56,684 bases of DNA from Segetibacter aerophilus (lineage in GTDB: Bacteria; Bacteroidota; Bacteroidia; Chitinophagales; Chitinophagaceae), in contig NZ_BJYT01000021.1 in the NCBI RefSeq assembly GCF_007991655.1, positions 1 to 56,684 on the forward strand. The letters run 5' to 3'. Positions 4,209-22,498 of this stretch are shown piece after piece. The position numbers were made by a program, and so were the translations under genes. The notes under the pieces are model-generated. The model was not told the DNA's origin. It saw only the letters and a list, made by a program, of their open reading frames with translations, and made no database searches. How positions within the stretch are numbered: the stretch's first letter is position 1; the number at the start of each line of letters is the position of its first letter.

Positions 4209-4246
4209 GATGGTTTTTAGTATTTTCGAAAGTAAGAGCATTCTTT

Positions 4247-4399: not shown

Positions 4400-4407
4400 C
4401 AACCCAC

Positions 4408-5546: not shown

Positions 5547-6197
5547 TTAGGTGACTATACCGTTTTTCAAAGCAAACATTACCAGACCCGCGGTATTTCT
5601 TACACCCACCTTTTCAATCAACCTGGTTCGAATACCCTCAACTGATCGTGGACTTAAGAATAAGTCTTTCCCCATTTCTGTAGCGGTTTTTTCTTCACAA
5701 ATTAACTTGAGAACCTGCAACTCGCGTTCGGTGAATTCAACATCCTTGTTGAAAGATGGTTTTATGTTGCCCTTTAATACAAGTCTTTTCAACAACGCTT
5801 TATTTACCAAATCATTAAAGTAATAACCGTTTTCGTGCACAGCGTAAATCGATTTTCTTATTTCATCTGCGTCTGCATTTTTTAGCAGGTAACCATTTGC
5901 ACCATTCTCCATTAGATGAATGATAAATTTGTCATCGTCATACATTGTTACCACAAGCACTTTCGATGAATTGAAACTTTTACGAACCTCCTTTGTAGCT
6001 TCAACGCCGTCCATCACAGGCATTTTCAAGTCCATGATAATCACATCAACGGCAGTACTCCTCATCCCAGTCAACAAGTCTTCGCCGTTATCAGCTTCTA
6101 GAACTACTTCCAAATTATCGTCTGCACCTAAACCAACCTTTAAACCATCCCGGTAGATCTTATAGTCATCTGCTATTGCAATCTTTATTTTCTTCAT
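5547..6197 (-). CDS. NarL/FixJ-type response regulator
   Basis: A 216-residue regulator: receiver domain at about 1-120 with acidic pocket D10/D11, phosphoacceptor D56 (VIIMDLKMP), T84 and K106, then a LuxR-type helix-turn-helix at about 148-212 (FTERELQVLKLICEEKTATEMGK...). It is the last gene of a four-gene leftward operon; its ATG overlaps the stop of the histidine kinase by 4 bases (ATGA), so the two are almost certainly a cognate pair with coupled translation. The kinase is of the HisKA_3 type that normally partners NarL-type regulators. Target genes cannot be read from sequence. Confidence 0.93.
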   Translation of the reverse strand: MKKIKIAIADDYKIYRDGLKVGLGADDNLEVVLEADNGEDLLTGMRSTAVDVIIMDLKMPVMDGVEATKEVRKSFNSSKVLVVTMYDDDKFIIHLMENGANGYLLKNADADEIRKSIYAVHENGYYFNDLVNKALLKRLVLKGNIKPSFNKDVEFTERELQVLKLICEEKTATEMGKDLFLSPRSVEGIRTRLIEKVGVRNTAGLVMFALKNGIVT

Positions 6198-7000
6198 GTT
6201 GCTGTTGTGTTTATTGGTACGTTTATTCTAATTCGATAGCCGTCTGCCTCAGAAAAAAATTCTATTTTGCCTCTAAGCAATATCACCCGGTTCATTATAT
6301 TTTTCAAGCCCAGCCCATCCTTATTATATCGCAATTCTTCAAACTGCTGTTGAGTCAACCCGATACCGGTATGGAAGATTGTGATCTCAAGAATGTGGTT
6401 TTGATACGTTGAACTTACCAATATTTCATCCGCCTTTGAATGCTTTAAAATATTATTAAGCAGTTCTTGCACCATCCGGTAAATACTGATATCATTCTCT
6501 GCATTTAGGGTTGTATAACTGTCATCCAAACGGGTTGTTGCTTTGATGATACTGCCTTCAATTGTCTTCTTAACAAAATGGCGGATTGCTTCATTGAGCC
6601 CAAATTCTTTCAAAATGTTGGAGTGGAGATTATGTGATATTCCGCGTACTTTTTGAATTCCCTCATCAAGCAATTCCTTGCCTTTTTCATGAAGTTGCTT
6701 ACCACGTTCGTCAAGAAGACTAGCATTGATACCCTGTAGGTGTAATTTAGAAGAGGAAAGTATTGCACCAACTTCGTCATGTAAAGCTTCGGCGATTCGG
6801 TGGCGTTCTGTTTCCTCGCTGCGAATAGCAGCTTCGATTAATTGGTTTTGTTGTCGCTCGTGCAGTTCCTGCATATCTCGCTGGTACTTTAATTTCTTCC
6901 TCTGAGTAATAATAAAAGCAAGTAAAAAGCTAAAAAAGAACAAAAGCATTACAACAACGAAAACATACAATTTCCATTCGAGCGAACTATTTTGAAACAT
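6194..7000 (-). CDS. Membrane histidine kinase, HisKA_3 type (copy 1 of module)
   Basis: Start chosen at ATG 7000 (268 residues), since the same start is conserved in the paralogous junction at 21148; an upstream ATG at 7024 would add 8 residues. One transmembrane helix (about residues 8-32), a short basic coiled coil (QRKKLKYQRDMQELHERQQ), the HisKA_3 phosphoacceptor box EETERHRIAEALHDEVG (His74) and the N-box MVQELLNNILKHSKAD. The G1 box reads HTGIG where DxGxG is usual, so the adenine-binding Asp is replaced by His; the later GLGLKNIMNR box is intact. There is no sensor domain of its own: sensing presumably comes from the membrane and lipoprotein genes upstream, which it overlaps by 14 bases. 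Confidence 0.88.
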   Translation of the reverse strand: MFQNSSLEWKLYVFVVVMLLFFFSFLLAFIITQRKKLKYQRDMQELHERQQNQLIEAAIRSEETERHRIAEALHDEVGAILSSSKLHLQGINASLLDERGKQLHEKGKELLDEGIQKVRGISHNLHSNILKEFGLNEAIRHFVKKTIEGSIIKATTRLDDSYTTLNAENDISIYRMVQELLNNILKHSKADEILVSSTYQNHILEITIFHTGIGLTQQQFEELRYNKDGLGLKNIMNRVILLRGKIEFFSEADGYRIRINVPINTTAT

Positions 7001-7637
7001 AAAAAGCTTTTGCAATAAACACACAAAAAAATAACAGTGCTACTTTTGGAATTTGCCACATTTGTACAGCAAAGGCTGTATTTTGATAAAAAGCAGAATC
7101 ATAAAAAATATAAACGGCAAAAGTGGTGACAATGAAAATACTCAATCCTGTTACAATCCAAAAAGAGGGATCTTTAATAAAGGAAGTTTGTTCTTCCTTA
7201 AGAATATAGATATAATACTGAAGGCATAGAAACAATAAAATGATTGTTTCTGTAAGGCGTAAAGTTGTACTTATTTTTTCCTTGTAAAAAGATTCTAGAA
7301 AAAGAAAGTTTATAATTACAAATATTATAAATAAAATGGGTAACATAAATTTAATTCGACTAAGAAAACGTTGTTTTAGCAACAGGAAAAACAGGCTGAA
7401 GAGTAAAAGTCTGATTATAGAGTCTATATTGTAGAGGGCTACGTTATTATGCCACGGCAAACTATAGCCGTACAACTTCTGATTTGAAATAAGATTACTT
7501 ATAAGGTTAAGAATAAAGGCTATTACAACATACAGCTTTACAGGAGTAAAAATGCTCCTCTTTCTTCTAGCTATTACGATAAAAAATAAGGGTATCAAAA
7601 AAGGCCAAACTTCTAACCAAGAAAGAATAAAGATCAT
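6987..7637 (-). CDS. Polytopic membrane protein of signalling module (copy 1)
   Basis: Start at ATG 7637, which overlaps the lipoprotein stop in an ATGA junction and gives 216 residues; ATG 7673 would add 12. About six to seven transmembrane helices in a mostly hydrophobic chain. Conserved with the paralog at 20481-21167: LSWLEVWPFLIPLF near the start (LDWSEVWAILIPLF in the other), ALYNIDSIIRLLLF (PIYNIHSLVRFGCF), FWIVTGLSIFIV (FWVVTGLSIFVV) and the C-terminal AKAFYVSK (AKAFYVPARN). No known domain recognised. Placement between a lipoprotein and a sensor-less kinase suggests it is the membrane receptor or relay. Confidence 0.7.
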   Translation of the reverse strand: MIFILSWLEVWPFLIPLFFIVIARRKRSIFTPVKLYVVIAFILNLISNLISNQKLYGYSLPWHNNVALYNIDSIIRLLLFSLFFLLLKQRFLSRIKFMLPILFIIFVIINFLFLESFYKEKISTTLRLTETIILLFLCLQYYIYILKEEQTSFIKDPSFWIVTGLSIFIVTTFAVYIFYDSAFYQNTAFAVQMWQIPKVALLFFCVFIAKAFYVSK

Positions 7638-8212
7638 TGTTCTAGCATTGTTGCACATACCATAGGTGGACAAGGATCTATTTCTATTGCTTGCGCAAAA
7701 TAAACCTTTTTAGCATCCGCGTCATAAGGTGAAATTGAATAGGTTAAGTGCAAGTGATCACGTGTTGAAATCATAGGCTTGAAGTAGAGGCCCCCGAATG
7801 TTTTATCCTTGTTATTTTTTTGAAAAGCATCTTTGATTTTAATAATTGTTTTAATTGGAAGCGGAATATTTCCAAAGGCTACGGGACTAGTTATGATGGT
7901 GTCTTTACTTTCAAAATTTTTAAGAGTGTCAGGCTTGTTAGAATTTTCATAAGAACCATCATTTTTCTCTGCATAGGAAATAGAACTGAACCTACTTTGT
8001 TTACTTACGATATTTGAGTTAAATACATTTATTACTAAAAATCGATATTGCACAGTGTCAAGCCAGGGATTGATCTGACTAGCTTCATAAATCAAATCTT
8101 TAAATTTTGGTGATTCATTACAAGAACTAAAGGCCAGCAGTATTGATATTAATGCTAGGACTACACCTAAACTTCTATTGTTTTTAATGATTAGGCTGTT
8201 TACATTATCCAT
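7634..8212 (-). CDS. Predicted lipoprotein of signalling module (copy 1)
   Basis: 192 residues with a lipoprotein signal peptide (hydrophobic 15-28, lipobox LAFSSC, Cys31). The mature part is of unknown function. Its C-terminal half resembles the 170-residue secreted protein at 19765-20277: both carry G-[NH]-[IL]-x-L-P-[IL]-x-T-[IM]-I and end in [AK]A-[IV]-E-[IF]-D followed by P-x-PP. First gene of the operon lipoprotein, membrane protein, kinase, regulator, with every junction overlapping (4, 14 and 4 bases). It is probably the periplasmic or surface ligand-facing part. The homology is judged by eye and is remote. Confidence 0.65.
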   Translation of the reverse strand: MDNVNSLIIKNNRSLGVVLALISILLAFSSCNESPKFKDLIYEASQINPWLDTVQYRFLVINVFNSNIVSKQSRFSSISYAEKNDGSYENSNKPDTLKNFESKDTIITSPVAFGNIPLPIKTIIKIKDAFQKNNKDKTFGGLYFKPMISTRDHLHLTYSISPYDADAKKVYFAQAIEIDPCPPMVCATMLEQ

Positions 8213-8534
8213 CTTTTCAGTTTTTTGTTTTTTACTAATTATTCTAAATGTTGTGTATTTAACGTGCGATAAACTTATCTGAAACTTAGCGACTCTCTCG
8301 CATAATAAGTGATCTGCTTACTATTATCATTACTCTTCTAATGTAATTCTCACTTTTCTCATTTCAAAGCTTTTGATAATATAATTGCGTATTTCTACGC
8401 AGCTTCTATAAATGAAAATTTACGGAGATGTTAGCGCGACTTAACAGTATCCTTACCTGACTTTTTTTATTAGTACATCCTACCTTGATATCGGCCGTAG
8501 TAAAGGCAAAATTTGTTGTATAAATAATCAGTTT
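8213..8534. other. AT-rich intergenic region
   Basis: A 322-base region between the leftward signalling operon and the rightward DUF2652 gene. It must hold divergent promoters, but I see no strong match to TTTG/TAnnTTTG on either strand, and no repeat or stable hairpin. Confidence 0.4.
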
Positions 8535-8687
8535 ATGTACAGCAAACTTCTCTTCTTCGCTCGCTTTCTTTTATTCTTATGTGCAACGGCCTTAATTAAC
8601 CCAAATGATACCGTTGTTACTATCAGTAGAATATTTACAGCCTGCAAGTCCGTGTACTGTTTGCTTACGGCTGACTCCAAACCCTAA
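8535..8687 (+). CDS. Possible small exported peptide (50 aa)
   Basis: ATG 8535 to TAA 8685-8687, 50 codons. The first 20 residues (MYSKLLFFARFLLFLCATAL) look like a signal or anchor; the rest is polar with two cysteines. It lies 24 bases before the DUF2652 start and could be a leader or partner peptide. No family is recognised and the size allows a chance frame. Confidence 0.28.
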   Translation: MYSKLLFFARFLLFLCATALINPNDTVVTISRIFTACKSVYCLLTADSKP

Positions 8688-8711
8688 ACCCGAATCTCAA
8701 AAAATATTCAC

Positions 8712-9329
8712 ATGAACGGCTTAATCATAATTCCAGACATTACCGGCTTTACCAATTTTGTAAAAAACACAAATATTGATCTAGGTGTATCTGTTATTTC
8801 TGACCTGTTGAATGAGGTTATTGACAGTAATCCCTTAGACATTGAGATTTCTGAAATTGAAGGCGACGCAATTCTGTTTTACAAATTAGGAAAACCTTTG
8901 TGCGTAAAACAAGTATTTGCTGGTTTAAAAACCATGTATGATGCTTTCAATAGCAAGTTCGAAACTTTGAAAAACACCTATAACCTTCAGGAGAGTCTAT
9001 CTCTTAAATTCATAGTTCACTACGGCGAAATACACCTTTGCAATATCAGGGGTTTTAAAAACCTGTTTGGTCAAACAGTTATTGAGGCCCATTGCTTGCT
9101 TAAGAACGGAGAAGGCAACTCTGATTATATTCTAATCACCGACGACTATCTTGAGGCTTTGGAACAGAATGTTTCAGTAGTACACTCAGTTGCATGGAGA
9201 TATTCAACTTCCGTTTCTCAATCCTTCTGCGGTTTGAGGCAAATCAAGTACAGTTTCTATAATCTGGCAATGCCTAATAATGGAAAGAACAATTGTCATT
9301 ACACATCTCAGAGACAACTAGCCCTATAA
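8712..9329 (+). CDS. DUF2652 protein, class III cyclase-like
   Basis: 205 residues matching DUF2652, a Bacteroidota family related to class III adenylate/guanylate cyclases. The first metal-binding Asp lies in IIPDITGFTNF (Asp9) and the second in ISEIEGDAILFYK (Asp59), so the two-metal site looks complete. The segment where active cyclases carry G-x-x-V-N-x-A-x-R reads FGQTVIEAHCLLKN: the transition-state Asn and Arg are absent. It may therefore bind a nucleotide without cyclising it, or use other residues. No regulatory domain is attached. A terminator follows at 9476-9514. Confidence 0.8.
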   Translation: MNGLIIIPDITGFTNFVKNTNIDLGVSVISDLLNEVIDSNPLDIEISEIEGDAILFYKLGKPLCVKQVFAGLKTMYDAFNSKFETLKNTYNLQESLSLKFIVHYGEIHLCNIRGFKNLFGQTVIEAHCLLKNGEGNSDYILITDDYLEALEQNVSVVHSVAWRYSTSVSQSFCGLRQIKYSFYNLAMPNNGKNNCHYTSQRQLAL

Positions 9330-9475
9330 TAAGGTATGCATGTGTATAGTCTTTATCACTTTTTTATATCCCTTTGTTTGGCAACATTTAGAAACAAATC
9401 ATCCAAGTGTTTACCCGTTTTATAAACCGATTAATTTCTTTTCTAAATAGAGAATGTTAGTATATTGCTAATGCT

Positions 9476-9514
9476 AAAAAAGAGGCCTGGAAAAGTATTC
9501 CAGCCTCTTTTTTC
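9476..9514 (+). terminator. Intrinsic terminator
   Basis: AAAAAAGAGGCCTGGAA pairs with TTCCAGCCTCTTTTTT (one bulged C) around a 5-6 base loop and ends in a T-run. It separates the DUF2652 gene from the sugar-oxidation cluster; being A/T-flanked on both sides it could work in either direction. Confidence 0.75.
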
Positions 9515-9562
9515 TAACGTTTGATCTTATTCATTTAAAAAAGACAACTAACTTTTCTTGCC

Positions 9563-10945
9563 ATGAGTTATTCACCAATCGACCGCCGCCATTTTATAAA
9601 AGGAGCAACTGCTACCCTCGCCCTTTCAGCACTTCAAGCAAATGGAATGAACTTTCGCGCACCTGGCAAAACATGGTCAGTTGCCTTAATTGGAACAGGC
9701 TGGTACGGCAAGAGTGACCTCTTTCGTTTAATCCAGGTCGCACCTGTTGAAGTGGTTGCGCTTTGCGATGTAGATAAAAATATGATGGAGGGCGCCGCAC
9801 AGTTGGTAAGTCAGCGCCAAAAGTCTAAGAACCGCCCTAAGTTATACGGTGATTATCGCAAGATGCTGGCAGAAAATAAACTCGATATTGTACTCATCGG
9901 AACACCCGACCACTGGCATGCACTTCAGGCAATCGATGCAATGAAAGCGGGCGCACACGTTTACGTGCAAAAACCAATTAGTGTAGATGTGATCGAAGGC
10001 GAGGCTATGGTCGCTGCAGCTCGCAAATATAACAGGGTTGTTCAGGTAGGCACACAACGAAAAAGTACTCCCCACTTGATTGATGCGAAAAAGAATATAG
10101 TTGATGCAGGCCTGCTTGGCAAAATATCGCATGTCGAAATGTGCTGCTATTTCCATATGCGCGCTAATGGTAATCCTGCTGTTCAGCCCGTGCCTGCATT
10201 TTTAGATTACGAGACGTGGACAGGTCCGGCTCCTATGAGGCCCTATGACGGTTTGCCCCACGTTCGCTGGTGGAGGACTTTCATGGAATATGGCAACGGC
10301 ATTATGGGTGATATGTGCGTGCATATGTTCGACACGGTTCGTTGGATGCTAAAGCTTGGGTGGCCAAAACGTATCAGTTCTACCGGTGGAATTTATGTGC
10401 AGAAAGATGGCAAGTCAAATATAGCCGACACCCAATCTGCTCTTTTTGAGTACGACGGTCTAAACTGCGTTTGGCAACACCGTAGCTGGGGCACTCCTGC
10501 TAATCCTGACTACCCGTGGTCTTTTACTATTTACGGTGAAAAAGGCACCCTAATTGCCTCAACTATGCAGTACGATTTTATTCCTGTCGACGAAAAAAGT
10601 GGAAGCAAGGTGCACAAAGATGTTGTCTACGAAAAAGAGAAATATCCTGAGGATGTAACAGAGCCGACCGAACCTAAGATAGAATTGAATGCCGCGCCAG
10701 CAACTCGCCTGCACATGCTGGATTTTCTTACAGCGATCGAAAAAGGAGGCCGGCCAGTAGCGGACATAGAGCAAGGGCATATTTCTACCGCAAGCTGCAT
10801 TTTGGCGAACATGTCGATGAAGGTTGGCAGACCGCTCGTTTATGATCCCCAAAAGCGACAAATTGTAAATGACCCTGAAGCAAATGCGTTGTTGAAAAGG
10901 CCCTATCGTTCTCCCTACGTTCATCCCGATCCAAACCAGGTATAA
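9563..10945 (+). CDS. Gfo/Idh/MocA-family oxidoreductase, Tat-exported
   Basis: 460 residues. A twin-arginine signal (DRRHFIKGATATLALSAL, residues 7-24) precedes a Rossmann domain (VALIGTGWYG, VVALCDVDK, IGTPDHWHALQAIDAM) and the catalytic-loop motif VQKPISV with Lys137 (QKP in place of the common EKP). The second domain holds GDMCVHMFDTVRWM, the usual GD..H...D substrate site. The family oxidises or reduces sugars using NAD(P); Tat export of a folded cofactor-bound enzyme fits a periplasmic role with a tightly held cofactor, as known for glucose-fructose oxidoreductase. First gene of a co-directional five-gene cluster. The substrate is unknown. Confidence 0.9.
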   Translation: MSYSPIDRRHFIKGATATLALSALQANGMNFRAPGKTWSVALIGTGWYGKSDLFRLIQVAPVEVVALCDVDKNMMEGAAQLVSQRQKSKNRPKLYGDYRKMLAENKLDIVLIGTPDHWHALQAIDAMKAGAHVYVQKPISVDVIEGEAMVAAARKYNRVVQVGTQRKSTPHLIDAKKNIVDAGLLGKISHVEMCCYFHMRANGNPAVQPVPAFLDYETWTGPAPMRPYDGLPHVRWWRTFMEYGNGIMGDMCVHMFDTVRWMLKLGWPKRISSTGGIYVQKDGKSNIADTQSALFEYDGLNCVWQHRSWGTPANPDYPWSFTIYGEKGTLIASTMQYDFIPVDEKSGSKVHKDVVYEKEKYPEDVTEPTEPKIELNAAPATRLHMLDFLTAIEKGGRPVADIEQGHISTASCILANMSMKVGRPLVYDPQKRQIVNDPEANALLKRPYRSPYVHPDPNQV

Positions 10946-11020
10946 GGGTTTTTTGAAGGTTTTTTAAAAATCAGCATAAAAAAGAACATTTCTTTTTAGC
11001 CCGGCGGAGGCGCACTATTT

Positions 11021-11050
11021 AACATCGTTGCGTCGCACTCTTGTACTTTT
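11021..11050 (+). repeat. GYGTCRC intergenic repeat, copy 1
   Basis: AACATCGTTGCGTCGCAC followed by TCTTGTACTTTTT. Best-preserved copy of a dispersed intergenic repeat (others at 15683, 22363, 29936, 30742, 35526, 42029, 47251 and 55922). Core form GCGTCGC. Confidence 0.7.
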
Positions 11051-11118
11051 TCTTTTTACTCGTCAGCGATAATAGTCTTTAAATCATCAAAAGTACCAGC
11101 ACAACCAGGTGGAGTAAT

Positions 11119-13680
11119 ATGTTTAAGCGAGTCTACAATATTTGCTTGTTTTTCGCCATACTCTTGGGTCTCGTCTGCTTCATTAATCCATTAAATTCAA
11201 ATCAGACGGATGAAGAACCTTCTCCTCCCCGTTCACCCCAGCAAGAACTTGCAACTTTTCAGACAGAACCGGGTCTGGAAGTTCAGTTAGTTGCTTCAGA
11301 GCCAATGGTACAAGATCCTGTCGTAACTACTTTTGATGCTGACGGCCGAATGTGGGTTGTTGAGATGCGGGGATTTATGGCCGACGTTGAAGGAACCGGC
11401 GAGAAAGAACGGATAGGCCGAATATCAGTGCTGCAGGATATAAACGGCGATGGGCAAATGGACTCAAGCACAATTTACCTCGATAGCCTCGTTATGCCCC
11501 GGGCTCTTGCAATCGTCAAGGGCGGAGCCCTTGTTACCGAAAACGGTTCTCTCTGGCTCACCCAGGATCTAAACAATGACCTAAAAGCTGATACCAAAAC
11601 TTTAATTGACTCTGCTTACGCCGGCAGCCCGCTACCAGAACACTCAGGCAACGGGTTATGGCGCGGAGTAGACAACTGGTATTACAACGCCAAGTCCCGC
11701 TTTAGATATCAATTGTCTAATGGAGTTTGGCAACGGGACAGTACCGAGTTTCGAGGCCAATGGGGAATAAGTCACGACGACGAGGGCCGCCTCATTTATA
11801 ATTACAACTGGTCCCAGCTTCATGCCGACCTGGTTCCACCTAATTATCTTTCACGTAACAAAAATCATAAGCCTACCACAGGCATCGACCACGGCTTAAC
11901 AGTAGACCGCAGAGTTTACCCAATACGACCCAACCCCGCAGTTAACCGCGGTTATATTCCTGGTACACTAGACAAACAAGGACGATTATTGGAATTCACT
12001 GCTGCCTGTTCTCCCCTATTTTATCGAGGCATAGCTCTACCCAAAGAATACTACGGCAACGTGTTTGTCTGCGAACCTTCGGGAAACCTGATCAAAAGGA
12101 ACATCGTTGAGGAAAACGGCTTTCTTCTTTCTGCTCACGATCCTCATCCCGGCAAAGAATTTCTTGCTTCAACCGATGAACGGTTTCGTCCCGTTCAATT
12201 ATCGACCGGCCCTGATGGCGCTTTATACATCACCGATATGTACCGGGGATTAGTGCAACATGCTGCCTATATCACCCCATACCTACGTGAGCAAACCATT
12301 AATCGCAAACTTGTCCAGCCTATTCATCGTGGTCGAATCTGGAGGATCGTAGCCAAAAACTGGAAGGCTGCGAATGCGAAAAAGTTGTCTGCTGCCTCAA
12401 ACGAGGAATTGATCAACCAACTATCTAATCCGGACGGCTGGCACCGCGACATGGCGCAAAGATTACTTGTAGAGCGCAACGACAAGGATGTCGAACCTGC
12501 CTTAACCAATCTTGCTTTAAAAGGAAAGAATAACCTGGGCCGTTTCCATGCCCTTTGGACGCTGCAAGGCTTACACCTTGTTCAGCCTGACTTGCTTCTG
12601 CAACTTGTTTCAGATCCAGTCGCTATTATACAGGCTACTGCCTTAAGACTGATCGAACCTTTTGCCAAAGCGGATAAAAATGTTAGGTTGAAGCTGGAAA
12701 GGACACTGGTGCAACAATGGCAAAAGGCGTCCCTTAAACCAATACTTCAAATAGCGCTCACCTCACAGGTACTAGACTCCACTACATCCTTTCCACTGTT
12801 GGCTGGTATTACCGGAAGACATGTTAGTTTCCCTTTAATTCGTGATGCAGTTATTAGTAGTCTTGAGAACAGGGAACTAAGCTTTTTAAAACACCTTTGG
12901 AAAAATGCGGAATGGCAAAAGCAGGATCCTTCAAAAGAAATTTTTCTTGAAATGTTGGCGACTGCCATTATGCATAAAAAAAATCCCAATGAACTAACTA
13001 CTCTGTTCGCTATGCTGGATGAGCGAAAAGCGCAACCAGGCTGGAGACAAAAAGCAATATTGACTGGGCTTTCAATGGGTGGGGGCGAGAACAATTCACA
13101 GCCCGTGAGGCTGCCAGTTCCGCCTTCAATTCTTACAAACTCAACTATTAAAATACCAGCCAATCGGCTTGCAGCCTTAACGTCTTTGTTTGAATGGCCG
13201 GGCCACATCGTGGATAAAATCAAAGCAACTTCGAAGAATATTCTAAATGAAGAACAGCAGCAGTTGTTTGCGCAGGGACGTCAGCACTACCTTACTACTT
13301 GTGCCGGTTGTCACGGAACAGATGGTGCCGGCATGAAACGTTTTGCTCCACCTCTTGCCGGTTCTGACTGGGTTGTAGGAGATGAGAAAAGATTAGCCCT
13401 AATTGTTTTGCACGGTATGGAGGGAGCAGTAGAAGTTGCGGGAAAAAAGTACGATGCTCCTGAAATCTTACCTGTCATGCCTGCACATTCTACTATGGAT
13501 GATGCAGCCATCACGGCTATTTTAACTTACATCAGAAACGAATGGGGAAACAACGCAGGCCCGATTGGTAAGCGTACTGTCGGAACCACGAGAAACACGA
13601 CACAAGGCCGGGTAGTACCATGGAAAGCAGCGGAATTAAAAAAGTATGTGTTAGAAACCAAAGTTCAGGAAAGCAAATAA
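11119..13680 (+). CDS. PVC-type membrane-bound dehydrogenase with C-terminal cytochrome c
   Basis: 853 residues. An N-terminal membrane/signal helix (about 5-25), then a beta-propeller-like dehydrogenase domain to about 420 (FDADGRMWVVEMRGF, GLWRGVDNWYYNAKSRFRY, TGPDGALYITDMYRG), an alpha-helical repeat segment at about 430-690 (HEAT-like), and a cytochrome c domain with TCAGCHG (Cys728, Cys731, His732) and distal Met787 in PVMPAHS. The family is common in Planctomycetes and sugar-using Bacteroidota and is thought to pass electrons from periplasmic oxidation to the respiratory chain; the substrate is not established. Stop and next start are 6 bases apart, so it is co-translated with the TIM-barrel gene. 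Confidence 0.85.
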   Translation: MFKRVYNICLFFAILLGLVCFINPLNSNQTDEEPSPPRSPQQELATFQTEPGLEVQLVASEPMVQDPVVTTFDADGRMWVVEMRGFMADVEGTGEKERIGRISVLQDINGDGQMDSSTIYLDSLVMPRALAIVKGGALVTENGSLWLTQDLNNDLKADTKTLIDSAYAGSPLPEHSGNGLWRGVDNWYYNAKSRFRYQLSNGVWQRDSTEFRGQWGISHDDEGRLIYNYNWSQLHADLVPPNYLSRNKNHKPTTGIDHGLTVDRRVYPIRPNPAVNRGYIPGTLDKQGRLLEFTAACSPLFYRGIALPKEYYGNVFVCEPSGNLIKRNIVEENGFLLSAHDPHPGKEFLASTDERFRPVQLSTGPDGALYITDMYRGLVQHAAYITPYLREQTINRKLVQPIHRGRIWRIVAKNWKAANAKKLSAASNEELINQLSNPDGWHRDMAQRLLVERNDKDVEPALTNLALKGKNNLGRFHALWTLQGLHLVQPDLLLQLVSDPVAIIQATALRLIEPFAKADKNVRLKLERTLVQQWQKASLKPILQIALTSQVLDSTTSFPLLAGITGRHVSFPLIRDAVISSLENRELSFLKHLWKNAEWQKQDPSKEIFLEMLATAIMHKKNPNELTTLFAMLDERKAQPGWRQKAILTGLSMGGGENNSQPVRLPVPPSILTNSTIKIPANRLAALTSLFEWPGHIVDKIKATSKNILNEEQQQLFAQGRQHYLTTCAGCHGTDGAGMKRFAPPLAGSDWVVGDEKRLALIVLHGMEGAVEVAGKKYDAPEILPVMPAHSTMDDAAITAILTYIRNEWGNNAGPIGKRTVGTTRNTTQGRVVPWKAAELKKYVLETKVQESK

Positions 13681-13686
13681 ACTGTC

Positions 13687-14814: not shown

Positions 14815-14844
14815 CTCCAACATAATAAGCTCTAAAAACAATTC

Positions 14845-15630
14845 ATGGATAAAGAAGTACTCCCGGGAATTAAACAATTTGATCTTAATGGCAAGTCCGC
14901 TATTATAACCGGCGGCTCAAAGGGTCTCGGCTTGGCGATGGCAGCAGGATTGGCTTCCGCCGGAGCCAATATCATGCTCGTTAATCGTAACGCAGAGGAA
15001 GGAACCCGTGCTGTAGAAGAATTAACGGCCGACTTTGGCATTAAAGCAATTTCCTTTCCGGCCGATATTACCAGTCAGGAACAAACCGAGGCAATGGCCT
15101 TAGCGGCTATGGATGCTTTTGGAAAAATTGATATCCTTATCAACAGTGCCGGCATCAATATCAGGGGTGCAATAGATGAAGTTAGTCCCGCAGATTTCAA
15201 CAAGGTTTTAGAAGTAAATGTAAACGGCACGTGGCTTTCCTGCCGAGCAGTCACTCCCTTTATGAAGAAAGCTAATAAGGGAAGTATCATTAATCTCGCC
15301 AGTACGCTCGGCCTTGTAGGCTTATCCAATCGTACGCCCTATACCGCTAGTAAAGGAGCAGTTGTACAAATGACACGGGCACTCGCCCTTGAATTGGCGC
15401 CTTTCAATATTAATGTGAATGCCATCTGCCCGGGACCGTTTTTAACTGAAATGAATATGCCCATTGCTGATACTGAAGAAGGTAAAAAATTTGTGGTAGG
15501 CGCAACTGCTTTGGGTCGTTGGGGAGAAATGCGGGAAATCCAGGGAGCAGCAATATTTCTTGCAAGTGATGCGGGCAGTTACATGGTCGGCTCGATGCTT
15601 ACGGTGGACGGTGGCTGGACGGCGCGGTAA
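14845..15630 (+). CDS. SDR oxidoreductase, gluconate 5-dehydrogenase-like
   Basis: 261 residues, classical short-chain dehydrogenase: TGGSKGLGLAMA cofactor loop, NSAGIN, NLASTLG catalytic Ser, YTASK (Tyr166/Lys170) and the C-terminal GSMLTVDGGW. The opening FDLNGKSAIITGG resembles gluconate 5-dehydrogenase and 2-deoxy-gluconate 3-dehydrogenase proteins. It has no signal peptide and therefore acts in the cytoplasm, presumably on the sugar acid imported by the MFS transporter that follows. It lies 30 bases after the TIM-barrel gene. Specificity is an inference from similarity and context. Confidence 0.88.
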   Translation: MDKEVLPGIKQFDLNGKSAIITGGSKGLGLAMAAGLASAGANIMLVNRNAEEGTRAVEELTADFGIKAISFPADITSQEQTEAMALAAMDAFGKIDILINSAGINIRGAIDEVSPADFNKVLEVNVNGTWLSCRAVTPFMKKANKGSIINLASTLGLVGLSNRTPYTASKGAVVQMTRALALELAPFNINVNAICPGPFLTEMNMPIADTEEGKKFVVGATALGRWGEMREIQGAAIFLASDAGSYMVGSMLTVDGGWTAR

Positions 15631-15682
15631 GCTTTAAGCAGTATTATAAAGTGATTTTGAGGCGGCCTTTATAACTCCCCTC

Positions 15683-15712
15683 AACATCGTTGCGTCGCAC
15701 TCTTGAACTTTT
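15683..15712 (+). repeat. GYGTCRC intergenic repeat, copy 2
   Basis: AACATCGTTGCGTCGCAC followed by TCTTGAACTT, nearly identical to copy 1. It lies between the SDR and MFS genes. An in-frame TTG inside it (15703) could mislead gene callers into extending the MFS gene into the repeat. Confidence 0.7.
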
Positions 15713-15774
15713 TTAACCATATTCTGCAAAATGCCAAAACCAAATACATAACCTCCACTCACCCAAAACAACTA

Positions 15775-17109
15775 ATGGAACAACCAATCGGCAAAAGCAA
15801 AAAGACCAGGATTCGATACGCCATGTTAGGCCTTGTCTTTATTAACGTAATGATTAATTACCTCGACCGTAGCAACCTGTCTGTCGCCGCTGCTTCCCTT
15901 AGTAAAGATCTGGAGCTATCTACTGTACAGATGGGTTTAATATTTTCAGCTTTCGGCTGGAGCTATGCACTACTCCAAATTCCCGGTGGATTAATAGCCG
16001 ATCGCTTTGGACCAAGAATTTTATACGCCTTTTGTCTAATTACCTGGTCCATTACCACTCTTTTACAAGGTTTTGCACGTGGCTTCGTCGGTCTTTTCGG
16101 ACTTCGCCTTGCTACCGGTGCTTTCGAAGCACCTTGTTATCCCATCAACAACCGCATTGTTACTAGCTGGTTTCCAAACCAGGAAAGGGCTTCAGCAATC
16201 GCTTTATACGTATCGGGCCAGTTTATAGGTTTGGCTTTTTTTACCCCTGTTTTGGTAACTATCCAATATTACTTTGGTTGGCAGGGATTGTTTATCACTA
16301 CCGGTTTAATCGGCTTACTCTGGGGATTTATCTGGTATTTCTTTTACCGTGACCCGCTTGAACATAAACGAGTAAACGCAGAGGAGCTTGACTACATAGA
16401 AAAAGGAGGTGGTTTAATATCAGGGAAAAAAGATAACCCTGCCCAGCCATCTATTTGGAAATGGGTCAATATAAAACAAGTCTTTTCTAACCGAACTCTA
16501 TGGGGAGTCTACATTGGCCAGTTTTCTTTAAATGCGATGCTTTGGTTTTTTCTGACATGGTTTCCTACTTACCTTGTCAAATACCGCGGCTTCAACTTTT
16601 TAAAATCAGGCTACCTTGCCTCTATCCCTTTTCTCGCAGCCTGCGCTGGCTTACTCATCTCCGGCTTCTTATCTGACTACCTTATACGAAAAGGCAAATC
16701 AATTGGAGTAGCACGAAAAACGCCGATCATTATCGGCCTCATCATTTCTATCAGTATCGTTGGAGCTAATTACAGCAACGATGCCGCTTCAATTATCTTC
16801 TTTATGGCACTGGCTTTTTTCGGCGCAGGAATGGGCTTGATCTCTTGGGTATTTGTTTCCATCTTGTCACCGAAACACCTCATCGGGTTAACTGGAGGGG
16901 TTTTTAATTTCATGGGCAACCTTGCTTCTATTGTGGTACCTATTGTAATTGGCTTCCTGGTGAAAGGAGGTGACTTTAAACCGGCATTGGTTTTTATAGG
17001 CGTAATTGCACTGATAGGCGCATGCTCTTATATTTTTCTGGTGGGTAAAATAGAGCAGGCTCCGGCAACGAATGAAGAAGTAAAAAGTAAAAATCCGCTA
17101 GAGGTTTAG
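15775..17109 (+). CDS. MFS transporter, anion:cation symporter (hexuronate/aldonate) type
   Basis: 444 residues from ATG 15775. A TTG at 15703 lies inside an intergenic repeat and would add 24 non-conserved residues, so I reject it. Twelve transmembrane helices; after helix 1, NYLDRSNLSVAAASLSKDL is the signature of the ACS family (ExuT, GudP, DgoT, sialin), and GGLIADRFGPR is the MFS loop 2-3 motif. ACS members import hexuronates, aldonates, glucarate or phthalate with protons. Together with the upstream SDR it suggests uptake of a sugar acid. It converges with the DUF5706 gene with 28 bases between the stops and no visible terminator. Confidence 0.9.
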   Translation: MEQPIGKSKKTRIRYAMLGLVFINVMINYLDRSNLSVAAASLSKDLELSTVQMGLIFSAFGWSYALLQIPGGLIADRFGPRILYAFCLITWSITTLLQGFARGFVGLFGLRLATGAFEAPCYPINNRIVTSWFPNQERASAIALYVSGQFIGLAFFTPVLVTIQYYFGWQGLFITTGLIGLLWGFIWYFFYRDPLEHKRVNAEELDYIEKGGGLISGKKDNPAQPSIWKWVNIKQVFSNRTLWGVYIGQFSLNAMLWFFLTWFPTYLVKYRGFNFLKSGYLASIPFLAACAGLLISGFLSDYLIRKGKSIGVARKTPIIIGLIISISIVGANYSNDAASIIFFMALAFFGAGMGLISWVFVSILSPKHLIGLTGGVFNFMGNLASIVVPIVIGFLVKGGDFKPALVFIGVIALIGACSYIFLVGKIEQAPATNEEVKSKNPLEV

Positions 17110-17137
17110 AGAATAGAAGTATTGTTTCATTCAGTAA

Positions 17138-18373
17138 TTAGTAAACATGAATTAAAGCAGCTATCGTAAATGCTATTACGGACACTGCAATTCCAAACAT
17201 GAAAATGCTATAAGAGATTCTCAGCAACTTGTATTTCCTCCCGAGCACCTTGCCTTGCCAATAAGTGTCCTTAATCAAACTTCCATATAAAAAGTATCGG
17301 TCTTCCATCATTTTCCTCATCCCATAATCATATTCCTTTAGTTCCATATTGTAGAAGCTGCCGTAGAACAATAAATTAACGGACTTGTTTTCCACTTGCT
17401 CCGGCGTAAAGACGCCTCTGGTCGCCTTTGGCCTGGTTGCCAAAATGGAATAGATAATGGTAGCAACATTTGTCAGCAATAAGATAATCGTCGGAAAGAT
17501 GAGGTACCTGTAATTATCCAATTTTCCGATGATCAGTCCCAGTATTGCCGACATGATAATTGAGTTGACTGAGATCATAATATGGGCTTTGTTATCAGCC
17601 ATCATACTTATTTTCTGACTGTTCGAAGAAGTTACCCTGAACATCGTTTCTATACCCCGGGTCGGCTTCTTATCAGGATTGTTAGGCTTTTTATTTCTAC
17701 CTGGAATCGTTTGCTCCGCCGGCCCTTCATCTGTATCGTCGGCAGCAACTGGTTCCGGTTCTGCTGCAAACGATTTTTCCGCTTGTTTACTTTTTAGCCT
17801 GTTTAGATTTTCCTCTTTTGTTTTGTTCAAAAGCGTTGTACAGTAATCGGTAAGAAAATGATGACTTTCCATCATTTTGATAATTTCTGCACGCCATTCA
17901 TGACCTCCTATTTTGTGGTTTTTAACTCCCTCTAGTTCCTTTCTAAGCAGCTTCTGGTCTTCTTTAAAATGTGCACTTCCCAGCCAAAACGTATTTACGT
18001 CACAAAGAATTTTTGCAGGCAAGCCAGTAGCATCGCCCGGCTTTCTCGTTGAGACAATACATTTTTTAATTTCGTTTATATCCTCTTCCGTCGCTCCACT
18101 GCTTTTTAAAAAGTTTTCAGCTATTTCTGCACTCTTTGTTTCGTAAGCCTCCAAAATTCCAGTTAGATAGCCCGTTTTATGAAACCAGGCTGAAGCGCAA
18201 ACAATAAAAAATAAGCGGTCATCTAGTTTGTAATGCCTCGCAATTTTTTCTGCAATAAATGCAACTTCTTTTGCTCGCGCATAGGTACTAAAAACAATTC
18301 TTTCGTCTGCATGCTGAGCATAAAACGCAGCAGTGTATTCTTCAACCTTTTTTAATAGCTTACTGTAATTCAT
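17138..18373 (-). CDS. HD-like/DUF5706 protein (Pycsar effector family)
   Basis: 411 residues in two parts. Residues 25-185 resemble the HD phosphohydrolase domain that accompanies DUF5706 in Bacteroidota, but the HD dyad in ASAWFHKTGYL is His65-Lys66, the first metal His position (around 31-36) is not His, and only the later CDVNTFWLGS Asp125 is kept, so hydrolysis is unlikely. After an acidic/proline linker (about 195-245), residues 250-411 form DUF5706: SQKISMMADNKAHIMISVNS, then two transmembrane helices (275-310), and a further helix at about 388-408. DUF5706 is the membrane part of Pycsar effectors, gated by cyclic pyrimidine nucleotides. No cyclase is adjacent. Confidence 0.8.
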   Translation of the reverse strand: MNYSKLLKKVEEYTAAFYAQHADERIVFSTYARAKEVAFIAEKIARHYKLDDRLFFIVCASAWFHKTGYLTGILEAYETKSAEIAENFLKSSGATEEDINEIKKCIVSTRKPGDATGLPAKILCDVNTFWLGSAHFKEDQKLLRKELEGVKNHKIGGHEWRAEIIKMMESHHFLTDYCTTLLNKTKEENLNRLKSKQAEKSFAAEPEPVAADDTDEGPAEQTIPGRNKKPNNPDKKPTRGIETMFRVTSSNSQKISMMADNKAHIMISVNSIIMSAILGLIIGKLDNYRYLIFPTIILLLTNVATIIYSILATRPKATRGVFTPEQVENKSVNLLFYGSFYNMELKEYDYGMRKMMEDRYFLYGSLIKDTYWQGKVLGRKYKLLRISYSIFMFGIAVSVIAFTIAALIHVY

Positions 18374-18664
18374 ATCAGTGCGGTGTCTGTTAAACGCTTA
18401 TCAAGCATCCTCTAATATATTCTATTTTTTCGACTCTAATAACTTGTCCAAAGTACTTAGACTGCTTAAATAACCCGTGCAAAATTTTTATCGTCGGGCA
18501 AAATTCCTTATTACTTTGAAGTGCAAAAACGAGTTCTTATATTGATGCCGACGTATAGGAATTTGAAGGCATAGGCTATTCTAAGATGAATGCTAATTGA
18601 TACAACGTAACGAAAGAACGAGACCACCATACTCACAATGCTTCTATCTGATAAATTTTTTCCC

Positions 18665-19768
18665 ATGAAAATATTTTTATTGGCATTAGCTTTTTCGAGC
18701 TGGATCTTCTATGCTGCCAACTATCATAAACACTTCGAAAAGAATTTCCCTCCTTACGAATCTTTCAATTCGACAACAACGGGCCTTTTTGAAACAGATG
18801 ATGTATTGGACATTAAACTAAGTGGAAGTCTACGTGAAATTTTTGGTGATCGTACCGAAAACGCAAAGTACCGTCCTATAGTTGTTTCTTATGCTTCAAA
18901 AGACAGCGGTGAAATTACTGTTGCCGCTGAAGCGAAAACTCGCGGCCATTTTCGCAAGACTGTCGGAAACTGTTCATACCCTCCTCTTATGCTTCATTTT
19001 ATAAAAAACGCAACTTTTAAGTCTTCTGTCTTTAACGACCAGGCAAAACTTAAATTGGTAATGCCCTGCCAGGGAGATGAATATGTTGTAAGGGAATGGA
19101 TGGTTTATCGCATTTATAATTTAATTACCCCAAAAAGCTTTAAAGCACGACTCGTTCGTATAGAGTTGGAGGATACAAAAAAGAAAAAGAAGACATCACC
19201 TTTTTATGGTATCCTACTGGAGGAAGAGCAACAGATGGCAAAAAGAAACCGGTCAGTTTTGATAGATAAACAAATGCTGAAACCTCAGCAAATCGACGAG
19301 ACAAATTTTCTAACAATGGCTGTGTTTGAATACCTTATTGGTAACACAGACTGGTCCGTGCAATACCAGCAGAACGTAAGATTATTGCTGCAAGACTCTA
19401 CCGCTTTCCCAAACGCTGTGCCTTACGATTTTGACCATGCAGGCCTGGTCAATGCACCATATGCGAAACCTGCGGAAGAGCTTCAAATGTATTCAGTTGT
19501 AGAACGGCGGTTCCGGGGATACTGTGTGCCAAATATGAAAAAATTCGATGAAGTAATTTCTGTTTTTAAACGTTTAAAAAAGGACATCTACAGCCTCTAT
19601 ACCGATTGTCCGCTCTTAGATGCAGGTTATATAAAAGCTACAAAAAAATACTTCGATGAATTTTATGCCACCATTAATAATGGCAAGGCGATGCAAAAAG
19701 AGTTTTCTTACCCATGCGATGAAAATGGAACGGGCAATGTTGTTATTAAAGGTCTCCGAAAAAACTAA
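18665..19768 (+). CDS. Secreted protein of unknown function, possible kinase-like fold
   Basis: 367 residues from ATG 18665 (ATG 18638 would add 9); the later start places a signal peptide (MKIFLLALAFSSWIFYA) at the N-terminus. Visible blocks: KTRGHFRKTVGNCSYPPLML (about 95-115), KLVMPCQGDEYVVREWMVYR, FYGILLEEEQQMA, EYLIGNTDWSV and VPYDFDHAGLVNA. The combination of an EEE segment, GNTDWS and PYDFD is reminiscent of CotH/HipA-like kinase folds, where Glu, Asn/Asp and DxD bind ATP and metal. I would not assign kinase activity on this alone. It is divergent from the DUF5706 gene and converges with a 4-base stop overlap on the next gene. Confidence 0.55.
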   Translation: MKIFLLALAFSSWIFYAANYHKHFEKNFPPYESFNSTTTGLFETDDVLDIKLSGSLREIFGDRTENAKYRPIVVSYASKDSGEITVAAEAKTRGHFRKTVGNCSYPPLMLHFIKNATFKSSVFNDQAKLKLVMPCQGDEYVVREWMVYRIYNLITPKSFKARLVRIELEDTKKKKKTSPFYGILLEEEQQMAKRNRSVLIDKQMLKPQQIDETNFLTMAVFEYLIGNTDWSVQYQQNVRLLLQDSTAFPNAVPYDFDHAGLVNAPYAKPAEELQMYSVVERRFRGYCVPNMKKFDEVISVFKRLKKDIYSLYTDCPLLDAGYIKATKKYFDEFYATINNGKAMQKEFSYPCDENGTGNVVIKGLRKN

Positions 19769-20277
19769 TAAGGAGGAGACGGATTTAAATCGAATTCAAT
19801 AACCGCTTTTGCAGAAAGAAAGGCGTTTTCTTCCTTGGCTACCCTGTTACTAAAACGATAACTCACATAGTCGAGCATCTCACCGTCTTTCTTGCACTTT
19901 TTGGGAGTTAAAACATAATTTTCAGATCCGTCGACATTCCTTTCAATCATTGTCTCAAGTGGCAGCCTAAGGTGTCCAAGGGAGAGGTTTTTTAATGATC
20001 TTGGTTTAGCGGCCATGGAATCCAAAGTGATCAAACCGCCCAATTTGTTATCATTGCCATCGTAAGCATAGCCTGTTAAAATATAGCTTTTGCTATTTAC
20101 CTGCTTAAAAGAAAAATCAAAGTATTTGAATGACGGGTAGCTGTTAAGAATATTTTTTACAGTACTTCCTCGCAGAGTTACAATGCAATAACTATCCTTA
20201 TCCCCCTGACTAAAAGAGGTCATAAAAAAACATAAGAAAAACATTGAGAGGAATACGGGTATTAATAATTTCTTCAT
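19765..20277 (-). CDS. Small secreted protein of signalling module (copy 2)
   Basis: 170 residues with a signal peptide cleaved near SFSQG (residue 23). Unknown family. Motif order G-H-L-R-L-P-L-E-T-M-I in the middle and the C-terminal AKAVIEFDLNPSPPY resemble the lipoprotein at 7634-8212 (GNIPLPIKTII and AQAIEIDPCPPM). It is transcribed divergently from the membrane-protein/kinase pair 204 bases away, whereas copy 1 is in the same operon. It has no lipobox cysteine, so it is probably periplasmic or secreted. Four conserved-looking CxC or KKCKKD features are too weak to interpret. Confidence 0.6.
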   Translation of the reverse strand: MKKLLIPVFLSMFFLCFFMTSFSQGDKDSYCIVTLRGSTVKNILNSYPSFKYFDFSFKQVNSKSYILTGYAYDGNDNKLGGLITLDSMAAKPRSLKNLSLGHLRLPLETMIERNVDGSENYVLTPKKCKKDGEMLDYVSYRFSNRVAKEENAFLSAKAVIEFDLNPSPPY

Positions 20278-20480
20278 GCTCGAGTATTTGTTTTAGATAA
20301 GGTTTAGGAAGTAAGGTCGACAAAAAATTCAATGAATACTACAAGTAACAGAGTTTTACGTAAATATGCAAGAGCTACAAACGAAACTTGCTATATTACT
20401 TGTGATAAGAAAGTAACCAATCCAAATAGTTGCAGTTCTAATTTCTCAATCCTAATTTGAGAAGTCTTTACGACTCACTT

Positions 20481-21167
20481 ATGAAACATCTAAACTTCAG
20501 CACGCTTCTCAAGCAGGTATTGGACTGGTCTGAGGTTTGGGCAATACTGATACCATTATTCATATTACGTATAACACATAAAAAACAGCCATTTTATTTA
20601 AAGCCCGTCATAACATATTTATGGCTGGCACTTGTAATGAACCTCCTGGTGGACGTTGTCGGAGATTTTAAAGCCTACCTTCCAAGCTGGGCGCAAAGCA
20701 ATAATCCCATCTATAATATTCATTCATTGGTGAGGTTTGGCTGTTTTAGCTACTTTTTTATTTTATTGCGAAAATCACTGGCAACAAGATTTAAAAAAAT
20801 TATCCTCTGGACATTTGTTGTATTTATCATTGTCAACTTCTTTTTCTTCGAAACGTTCTTTAACCCGCGGCATCTTAGCGGAGATCTTTTAGCAGTCGAG
20901 GCTTATCTTTTACTGATTTGTTGCATGCAATATTACCTGTCGCAATTGCGCCAGAACGAGGAAGGCATTTCAGAGGATGCTGACTTTTGGGTGGTAACGG
21001 GCCTGAGTATTTTTGTAGTAATAAATTTCTTTCTCTTCCTGTTTTATGTTCCTATGATTACTGAGAATCCTGCGCTGGCTGATAAAATGTGGGATATTCA
21101 CAATGTTGCCTACATCATTTTTTGTATTTTAATAGCTAAAGCTTTTTATGTACCTGCTCGCAATTGA
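20481..21167 (+). CDS. Polytopic membrane protein of signalling module (copy 2)
   Basis: 228 residues from ATG 20481; a TTG at 20457 would add 8 residues and is less likely. Six to seven transmembrane helices. Clear paralog of 6987-7637 along its whole length: LDWSEVWAILIPLF, NPIYNIHSLVRFGCFSYFF, DFWVVTGLSIFVVINFF, FCILIAKAFYVPARN. Its 3' end overlaps the kinase start by 20 bases, as in copy 1, so the pair is translationally coupled. Conserved charged residues sit in the loop after helix 2 and in the C-terminal tail. The function is unrecognised; a receptor role is inferred from the fixed partnership. Confidence 0.7.
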   Translation: MKHLNFSTLLKQVLDWSEVWAILIPLFILRITHKKQPFYLKPVITYLWLALVMNLLVDVVGDFKAYLPSWAQSNNPIYNIHSLVRFGCFSYFFILLRKSLATRFKKIILWTFVVFIIVNFFFFETFFNPRHLSGDLLAVEAYLLLICCMQYYLSQLRQNEEGISEDADFWVVTGLSIFVVINFFLFLFYVPMITENPALADKMWDIHNVAYIIFCILIAKAFYVPARN

Positions 21168-22209
21168 TCTTGAATACCGGGTTATCATTGGCATTTCAGC
21201 TATGGTAATCCTCTTTACCAGTTTCATTATTTCTTTTGTTATAAGCCATCGAAAAAAGCTTCAGTACCACAAAGACTTGCACATCCTGCACCAGGAGCAA
21301 CAACGAATGCTAACCGAACAAAATGAATTGCTCGAAAAAGGAGTACAACAAAGAACCGCAGAATTATCAAAGCAAAAAGAAGAGCTTGAAAAAACAATTT
21401 CTCATCTTAAACTAACACAGGCCCAATTAATACAAGTAGAAAAGATGGCCTCACTAGGGCAACTTACAGCGGGCATCGCACACGAAATTCAAAACCCTTT
21501 AAACTTCGTCAACAATTTTTCTGAAGTAAGCACAGAATTGGTTGAGGAAATGGAAGAAGCTTTAAAAAAGGATTCGAAAGAAGAGGCAGTAACCATTGCT
21601 ACCGACCTTAAAGAAAACCTTAGAAAAATAGCCCATCATGGAAAACGTGCAGATGTTATTGTAAAAGGAATGCTTCAGCATACTCAAATAAGCACTGGAA
21701 AAAAAGAGCTGGTAAGAATTAATGAATTGGCAAATGAATACCTAAGGATAACGTACAACGGTTTTTCTCTAAAGGATAAATCTTTCTATGCAGTTATAGA
21801 AACGGATTTTGATGAACGTATAGGAAAGGTTGAAGTGGTGCCGCAGGATATTGGAAGGGTACTCCTGAACCTGTTCAACAACGCCTTTTATGCTGTTATC
21901 GAAAAGAAAAGACAATTGAACGGAAGCTTTGAACCAATAGTGGCAGTAAAAACAAAAATGGGAAAATCGGGATCCACGGATAAGGCCGAAACAATTTCAA
22001 TTATCGTGAGGGACAATGGTTGTGGCATTTCTTCTAAACTCGTTCATAAAATATTTCAACCATTCTTTACAACAAAACCAACAGGGCAAGGAACAGGTCT
22101 GGGATTGTCAATTAGTTACGATATAGTAAAAGCGCACGGCGGAGAATTAATCGTTGAAACTGAAGAAGGCAAATACTCCTCCTTTGAAATTTTATTACCG
22201 CTCAAATAA
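21148..22209 (+). CDS. Membrane histidine kinase (copy 2 of module)
   Basis: 353 residues: one transmembrane helix at about 11-33, then SHRKKLQYHKDLHILHQEQQ, matching TQRKKLKYQRDMQELHERQQ in copy 1, a coiled coil to about 98, the phosphoacceptor box [19 protein letters not shown] (His112), an N-box with Asn241 to Asn245 (LLNLFNNAFYAV), DNGCG (Asp289), FQPFFTTK and GTGLGLS. It is complete for kinase activity. Only the N-terminal membrane anchor is shared with copy 1; the catalytic half is a different (HisKA/HATPase) class, so the module has changed kinase core. No response regulator is adjacent. Confidence 0.92.
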   Translation: MYLLAIDLEYRVIIGISAMVILFTSFIISFVISHRKKLQYHKDLHILHQEQQRMLTEQNELLEKGVQQRTAELSKQKEELEKTISHLKLTQAQLIQVEKMASLGQLTAGIAHEIQNPLNFVNNFSEVSTELVEEMEEALKKDSKEEAVTIATDLKENLRKIAHHGKRADVIVKGMLQHTQISTGKKELVRINELANEYLRITYNGFSLKDKSFYAVIETDFDERIGKVEVVPQDIGRVLLNLFNNAFYAVIEKKRQLNGSFEPIVAVKTKMGKSGSTDKAETISIIVRDNGCGISSKLVHKIFQPFFTTKPTGQGTGLGLSISYDIVKAHGGELIVETEEGKYSSFEILLPLK

Positions 22210-22390: not shown

Positions 22391-22498
22391 GAAATTGGTT
22401 TCGACGTTGGTAAAACAAAAATTTGTTTTCTATACAAGCCTTAAGAGTCTTGCTCCTTGGTTTAATTGAAATCGGTTTGCTCAATAGGAATTTTTTTT

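Follow-up and report, generated by a model that had tools for sequence, protein, structure and literature searches.

A recurrent membrane protein and histidine kinase module with small partner proteins in Segetibacter aerophilus and other Bacteroidota: a candidate split-sensor input unit for two-component signalling

Two loci (A and B) of Segetibacter aerophilus each encode a small protein with an export signal, a polytopic membrane protein (MP) and a histidine kinase with a single membrane helix, and they raise the question of how such a kinase receives its input. They lie on contig NZ_BJYT01000021.1 (assembly GCF_007991655.1), of which positions 1 to 56,684 were analysed as one stretch, here called the window. 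An earlier reading made from the DNA letters alone (the original prediction) had described them as a duplicated signalling module whose input cassette is exchanged between kinase cores. Our analyses confirmed this observation and partly supported its interpretation. We consider it fairly probable that the module consists of a detached seven-helix receptor and a small partner protein, which together drive interchangeable single-helix kinases. As an input unit for two-component signalling it is real and widespread, and it appears to be undescribed; the evidence is good that one type of receptor and kinase anchor is combined with different kinase cores. The genes of the two loci are as follows:

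5547..6197, minus strand: response regulator A, NarL type, 216 aa (Pfam Response_reg and GerE)
6194..7000, minus strand: histidine kinase A, 268 aa, ATG at 7000, one membrane helix (Pfam HisKA_3 and HATPase_c)
6987..7637, minus strand: membrane protein MP-A, 216 aa, ATG at 7637 (38% identity to MP-B, E 4e-43)
7634..8212, minus strand: small putative partner protein A, a 192-aa predicted lipoprotein (open reading frame, ORF; leave-out profile E 1.9e-13)
19765..20277, minus strand: small putative partner protein B, 170 aa, predicted signal peptide (ORF; leave-out profile E 3e-13)
20481..21167, plus strand: membrane protein MP-B, 228 aa, ATG at 20481, seven predicted helices (AlphaFold2 model)
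21148..22209, plus strand: histidine kinase B, 353 aa, one membrane helix (Pfam HisKA and HATPase_c; anchor kinship to kinase A, E 2e-12)

The ORF list placed all genes on the strands originally predicted. Locus A is a minus-strand operon of four genes with successively overlapping reading frames; the starts of its MP, kinase and regulator were read from the sequence and judged likelier than the longest-ORF starts. The start of MP-A overlaps the stop of the lipoprotein gene by 4 nt (ATGA), kinase A overlaps MP-A by 14 nt, and the regulator ATG at 6197 gives a 4-nt overlap with kinase A. Small protein A was classed as a lipoprotein by hydropathy and a lipobox rule (lipobox ...AFSSC) and ends in EIDPCPPMVC. 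At locus B, the gene for small protein B (tail EFDLNPSPPY) is divergent from that of MP-B, from which it is separated by a gap of 203 nt, and the frames of MP-B and kinase B overlap by 20 nt. Pfam identified the phosphoacceptor and ATPase domains of a two-component kinase at both loci, and a putative cognate regulator gene adjoining the kinase at locus A; none follows kinase B at locus B.

The two membrane proteins are paralogs, as had been proposed, with 81 of 213 positions identical. The kinases aligned over their 65 N-terminal residues only, plus one chance-level scrap. The predicted motif RKKL.Y..D...L...QQ is present in both, and they share only this anchor; their catalytic classes differ (HisKA_3 in A, HisKA in B). 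At both loci the kinase ATG sits within the MP codons for AKAFYV, with the overlaps of 14 and 20 nt given above; therefore, the junction has been kept despite the different core. The term duplicated was right as to repetition and too modest as to number: a search of the same genome gave four MP matches at E<=0.01, corresponding to loci A and B, one on contig C8 and one on contig C2. The C8 module encodes a 130-aa small protein without evident signal peptide, an MP, a HisKA_3 kinase and a NarL-like regulator, and the C2 module a lipoprotein with a CPP tail, an MP and a HisKA kinase.

Direct comparison of the two small proteins gave no similarity by pairwise BLAST (E 0.53), and an hhalign comparison of protein A by itself with the protein B group yielded a probability of 0.5%. 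Proteins encoded ahead of related MPs were collected, and 102 were clustered after manual removal of ten rows that clearly represented other proteins (such as a kinase, regulators and enzymes). Single linkage, which can chain, placed both window proteins in a group of 26 rows (F26) and most distant members in a group of 60 rows (F60), the remaining 16 rows forming smaller groups or singletons; F26 split into nine pieces once both sequence ends were cut off. Comparison of F26 with F60 gave a probability of only 45%, and therefore they are not called one family. Profiles made without each window protein recovered A at E 1.9e-13 and B at E 3e-13 against 8822 ORFs and, when the ends of the training rows were cut, at E 1.1e-8 and 7.5e-8; therefore, the likeness is more than chance and we take the two proteins to be homologous, in line with the original prediction. 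Three orthologs of protein B were recovered more weakly in the full leave-out test (E 8.1e-7, 3.5e-6 and 0.0014), and one of its orthologs (region L035) failed in the ends-cut test (E 7.3). The motif G[NH][IL].LP..T.I is present in both window proteins; the shared tail motif had been mis-spaced, the actual tails being EID-PCPP in A and EFD-LN-PSPP in B. A PP or CP pair occurs within the last 45 residues of 88/102 distinct small-family ORFs vs 37/442 other genes, an enrichment that is partly circular because the small-family profiles include the tail. The small proteins are 90-310 aa long. A model of small protein B built from six sequences had a moderate predicted local distance difference test score (pLDDT, 73.5), with two strand-helix-strands halves, and no significant fold match was found for it in the PDB. 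Two or three small-family genes precede one MP gene in L046, L058, L089 and L049, apparently one exported and one not.

Gene context was tabulated in 100 regions taken from score-ranked lists, best first and some genomes repeatedly, and hence not a random sample. These contained 137 MPs, of which 115 were kept after omitting 15 named loci and seven MPs under 76 bits (among the seven, a kinase is next in two, L110 and L093, and not in five). A kinase lies directly downstream of the MP in 98 of 113 assessable cases, 87 with HisKA_3 and 11 with HisKA. Of the 113 MPs assessable upstream, 93 are preceded by an F26 or F60 gene at up to 3 kb, 82 of them by one on the same strand and no more than 360 nt away. 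These counts are the opposite of what the original prediction had named as its refutation, namely MPs found mostly without partner or kinase. With the starts chosen, the MP frame runs into the kinase frame in 70 of the 98 modules. A NarL-type regulator comes next in 74/87 HisKA_3 modules vs 0/11 HisKA modules. Both window loci show the same arrangement of an MP followed by a single-helix kinase with an F26/F60 protein nearby. A further set of 20 regions, used in building no model, was chosen from the phylum match list of a 50-row MP model, one place with two stops being passed over. In this set, a small-family gene was found upstream by profile in 17 of 20, L173 having a lipoprotein of similar look, and a kinase was next in 18 of 20 (17 by profile, plus a LytS-type kinase in L172).

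Matches to the MP (E<=1e-5) were found in 79/394 genomes of the sample at the level of the family Chitinophagaceae with a two-row model, in 103/298 genomes of the order and 33/395 of the phylum with a 31-row model, and in 84/395 sampled Bacteroidota genomes with the 50-row model; these counts are lower bounds, few candidates per genome having been scored. The named relatives, at least 15 loci, include Daejeonella oryzae, Ginsengibacter hankyongi and assemblies labelled Mucilaginibacter, Ferruginibacter and Segetibacter. Pfam named no family for MPs or small proteins among the window proteins, 31 plus four further MPs and eight further small proteins. The NCBIfam scan, of fewer proteins, gave no family and a few models matched far below their cut-offs; a PADLOC scan of eight proteins named nothing, and MP had no match among PDB sequences. 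No description recognised as this module was found in open-licence PMC papers, and the passages available from PMC12419801 do not describe it. This is consistent with the original statement that no such system had been described, though such absence cannot prove novelty.

An anchor profile built from 26 HisKA_3 module kinases found every one of the 23 rows from HisKA modules, a count that includes duplicates; 22 of them scored E<=6.2e-11 and the other 3.8e-6. It listed five other kinases, two of them below 1e-3: a HisKA kinase lying divergently beside a small protein-MP pair (L053) and the module kinase of L112; no other ORF passed 1e-3. The N-termini of 111 distinct module kinases, inspected by eye, have a short start and a single hydrophobic stretch and lack an outer domain, although in L145, L098 and L127 at least the start-picking rule had placed the start downstream of the helix. 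Receptor and small protein are co-inherited, the small-protein group changing once on a tree of the 70 best-scoring MPs (57 labelled rows, support 98). On this tree the 18 HisKA rows form one clade (SH-aLRT, the approximate likelihood ratio test, 95). A 146-row MP tree, which adds C2 and the further set, counts L053 as HisKA and has several long-branched rows, requires six changes of kinase class, five of them forced by starred branches. The kinase-core tree (30 rows, omitting the long-branch kinases of L124 and L057) does not unite the HisKA cores in one clade: it has eight class changes, and none of 200 bootstrap trees has a single change. A single origin of the HisKA core, suggested by the one clade on 70 MPs, was set aside on this core tree and on the six changes on 146; yet the approximately unbiased test of one clade did not reject it (p 0.077). 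We conclude that the kinase core has been exchanged several times, the cores alone not fixing the number of events. One anchor profile thus spans both classes while the class behind it changes, as expected from the original idea of a retained input cassette. Pfam identified HisKA in L053, C2 and L075, PAS-HisKA in L124 and PAS-PAS-HisKA-receiver in L174. In L172 (2827-5584, plus strand), a small lipoprotein and an MP are followed by a single-helix LytS-type kinase (Pfam His_kinase) and a LytTR regulator, which adds a third class to the kinases joined to this front end.

The AlphaFold2 model of MP-B with 16 relatives (mean pLDDT 89.7, predicted TM-score 0.87) confidently predicts seven membrane helices (6-15/17-32, 38-62, 75-95, 102-123, 134-157, 167-195 and 197-223). 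Over 122 MPs, the loops assigned to the inner side together carry an average of 8.0 K+R and those assigned to the outer side 2.8, which favours an N-terminus outside. In 29 close rows, N74, Y78, N79, H81, S82, E140, W204 and H207, which their positions in the helices put on or close to the outer side, are 90-100% conserved; over the 122 MPs, conservation is 78% for N74, 71% for W204, 56% for E140, 52% for H207, 87% for W170 and 89% for G174. The best 50 of 329 Foldseek rows for the model were all G protein-coupled receptors (GPCRs) or a designed GPCR-like fold, with TM-scores by query length of 0.26-0.53, and none reached E<=0.001 (best E 0.42). In the model, the resemblance of MP to GPCRs is thus one of layout, not of kinship.

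Based on these results, each locus would be a copy of a Bacteroidota two-component module in which the sensor is split from the kinase. MP would act as a seven-helix receptor with its N-terminus outside and its C-terminus on the inner side. As the kinase has a single membrane helix and lacks an outer domain, its input would come from the receptor, presumably through packing of the anchor helix against MP; it is unlikely that such a kinase senses outside signals alone, and likely that sensing falls to MP and coupling to the anchor. The contacts, the direction of signalling and ligand binding are what we infer here. The small upstream protein may be dedicated to the receptor, as its co-receptor, a protein ligand or a regulator, and perhaps contacts it through the C-terminal proline tail. 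Receptor and small protein are inherited together, the anchor would be the plug that fits the receptor, and the catalytic core behind this plug has been replaced several times. The signal would pass at locus A to the co-encoded NarL regulator and at locus B to a regulator that must be encoded elsewhere. In its boldest form, the proposal would be a large, undescribed Bacteroidota family of stand-alone receptors of GPCR-like layout, switched by the proline tail of a co-encoded small protein and plugging into interchangeable kinases through one anchor helix; as a whole, this we regard as rather doubtful.

Several results weigh against this reading. The sampled loci came from score-ranked lists instead of random choice. 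By the distance rule, 15/113 MPs lack an adjacent kinase, and in the further set L173 and L180 have no adjoining kinase. The anchor profile matched 79/95 HisKA_3 rows at E<1e-3 in the first set and 7/17 profile-found kinases of the further set, so the anchor drifts in distant members. Inner loop 5 of MP is net acidic, and the inner-side residues Y46, Y152, W170, T173 and G174 are as conserved in the 29 close rows as the outer ones. Finally, 64/107 small-family ORFs (duplicates included) have no evident signal peptide and 43 look exported, according to a simple hydropathy rule, which errs in borderline cases (L040, for example). Therefore, an outside partner cannot be general: the original claim of a secreted partner holds at both window loci and not for the family at large. 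Mixed export argues against the partner being a purely secreted ligand throughout the family, and it is compatible with a co-receptor, a ligand and an inner regulator alike. As to the 15 MPs without adjacent kinase, L112 does have a module kinase, overlooked by the distance rule. Several of the others belong to tandem arrays of MPs with one kinase behind them (L111, L124 and L103), as if several receptors fed one kinase; in L111 they start at 3463, 4305 and 5146. The L173 locus (3454-4947, minus strand) consists of a small lipoprotein and an MP, with no kinase beside them.

Other roles for MP were weighed on the same data. It could be a brake of the LiaF kind that binds no ligand and inhibits the kinase, with release by envelope stress or by the small protein. 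The gene order of LiaFSR (membrane accessory protein, HisKA_3 kinase, NarL-type regulator) is that of locus A, and kinase A matches the NCBIfam LiaS model, although at 71.2 bits for a cut-off of 450. LiaF is presented as a negative regulator in PMC3543457. Nevertheless, no LiaF-type Pfam domain was found in MP-A, MP-B or the 31 MPs, and the seven helices with conserved polar residues on the outer side suggest a receptor; a brake appears unlikely. If MP were instead a transporter or a membrane enzyme, with the small protein or something else as its substrate, the kinase would read its working state, as happens with UhpC and BceAB, transporter co-sensors of two-component systems. Among the 31 MPs, weak Pfam matches to Acyl_transf_3 (two MPs, best E 5.6e-5) and BaxI_1 (one MP, E 0.0015) point in this direction. 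Such enzyme-family matches are limited to these three, and the 122 MPs show no catalytic-like polar conservation (W170, G174, N74, E140 and H207, at the frequencies given above), which makes this role quite unlikely.

Quorum sensing of the Agr type would turn the small protein into a pheromone precursor, MP into the protein that processes or exports it, and the kinase into the sensor of the product. The order small protein, membrane protein, kinase and regulator resembles that of agr, and the conserved C-terminal proline/cysteine tail of the small proteins could be read in the same way. However, the kinase itself lacks a polytopic sensor, Pfam scans of the MPs scanned gave no AgrB family match, C148 is conserved in 60% of MPs and H207 in about half of them, and the small proteins have the lengths given above and, in the small protein B model, a fold. 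We consider this very unlikely, and the detached receptor with a small partner remains our preferred reading.

Some genes around the two loci and elsewhere in the genome were also noted. Directly behind locus B, positions 22466-24697 (plus strand) encode a 743-aa 7TMR-DISM HisKA kinase (Pfam), whose core shares 65% identity with the core of kinase B. It was considered as the donor of core B and rejected, other kinases of the genome being about as close (57-65% identity). Several HisKA cores of the kinase B type are clustered on contig C1 of the same genome, at about 456-465 kb (L154, L155, L157 and L160). A 376-aa ORF adjoining locus B (18638-19768, plus strand) has a weak, sub-cut-off CotH match (E 0.0037), and the N-terminal part of a 205-aa ORF beside locus A (8712-9329, plus strand) looks nucleotide-cyclase-like, as judged by eye.

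The module suggests a source of input for the sensor-less single-helix kinases that recur through these genomes, and it comprises two protein groups without family entry in the scanned libraries, with MP in about one in five of the Bacteroidota genomes sampled. One front end joined to HisKA_3, HisKA, hybrid and LytS-type cores provides natural experiments, and these core swaps make receptor-to-kinase coupling through a bare anchor helix directly testable. If the proposal were true, stand-alone receptors of GPCR layout with interchangeable kinases would represent a modular receptor-effector arrangement in bacteria.

Among known systems, LiaFSR also has a separate membrane protein gene just before a HisKA_3 kinase and a NarL-type regulator. 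Unlike it, the module has a small protein ahead of MP and admits other kinase classes, and its MP shares no Pfam family with LiaF and was modelled, in MP-B, with seven helices. GPCRs share the seven-helix layout with MP, with neither a significant structural match nor a PDB sequence match. QseG-QseE and CpxP-CpxA resemble the module in that a small exported protein is encoded with the kinase. The QseE and CpxA kinases have periplasmic domains of their own, whereas in the module a seven-helix protein is interposed; the small proteins were compared through Pfam and NCBIfam. According to PMC12691602, QseG activates QseE via the C-terminal domain of QseG. The 7TMR-DISM and LytS/BtsS sensor kinases are like MP in having seven helices and the N-terminus outside; as an analogy only, the ligand site of BtsS, which has this topology, is placed on the periplasmic side in PMC10653868. 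In these kinases the receptor is fused to the kinase, while the MP of the module is a separate gene, and the MPs scanned matched neither these nor other known seven- or five-helix sensor families in Pfam. Sensory rhodopsins were absent from the best 50 of 329 Foldseek rows for the MP-B model, kinship being judged from PDB searches. The transducer of sensory rhodopsin has two helices and feeds CheA. As in the proposed module, a separate seven-helix receptor signals there through a partner with simple membrane helices.

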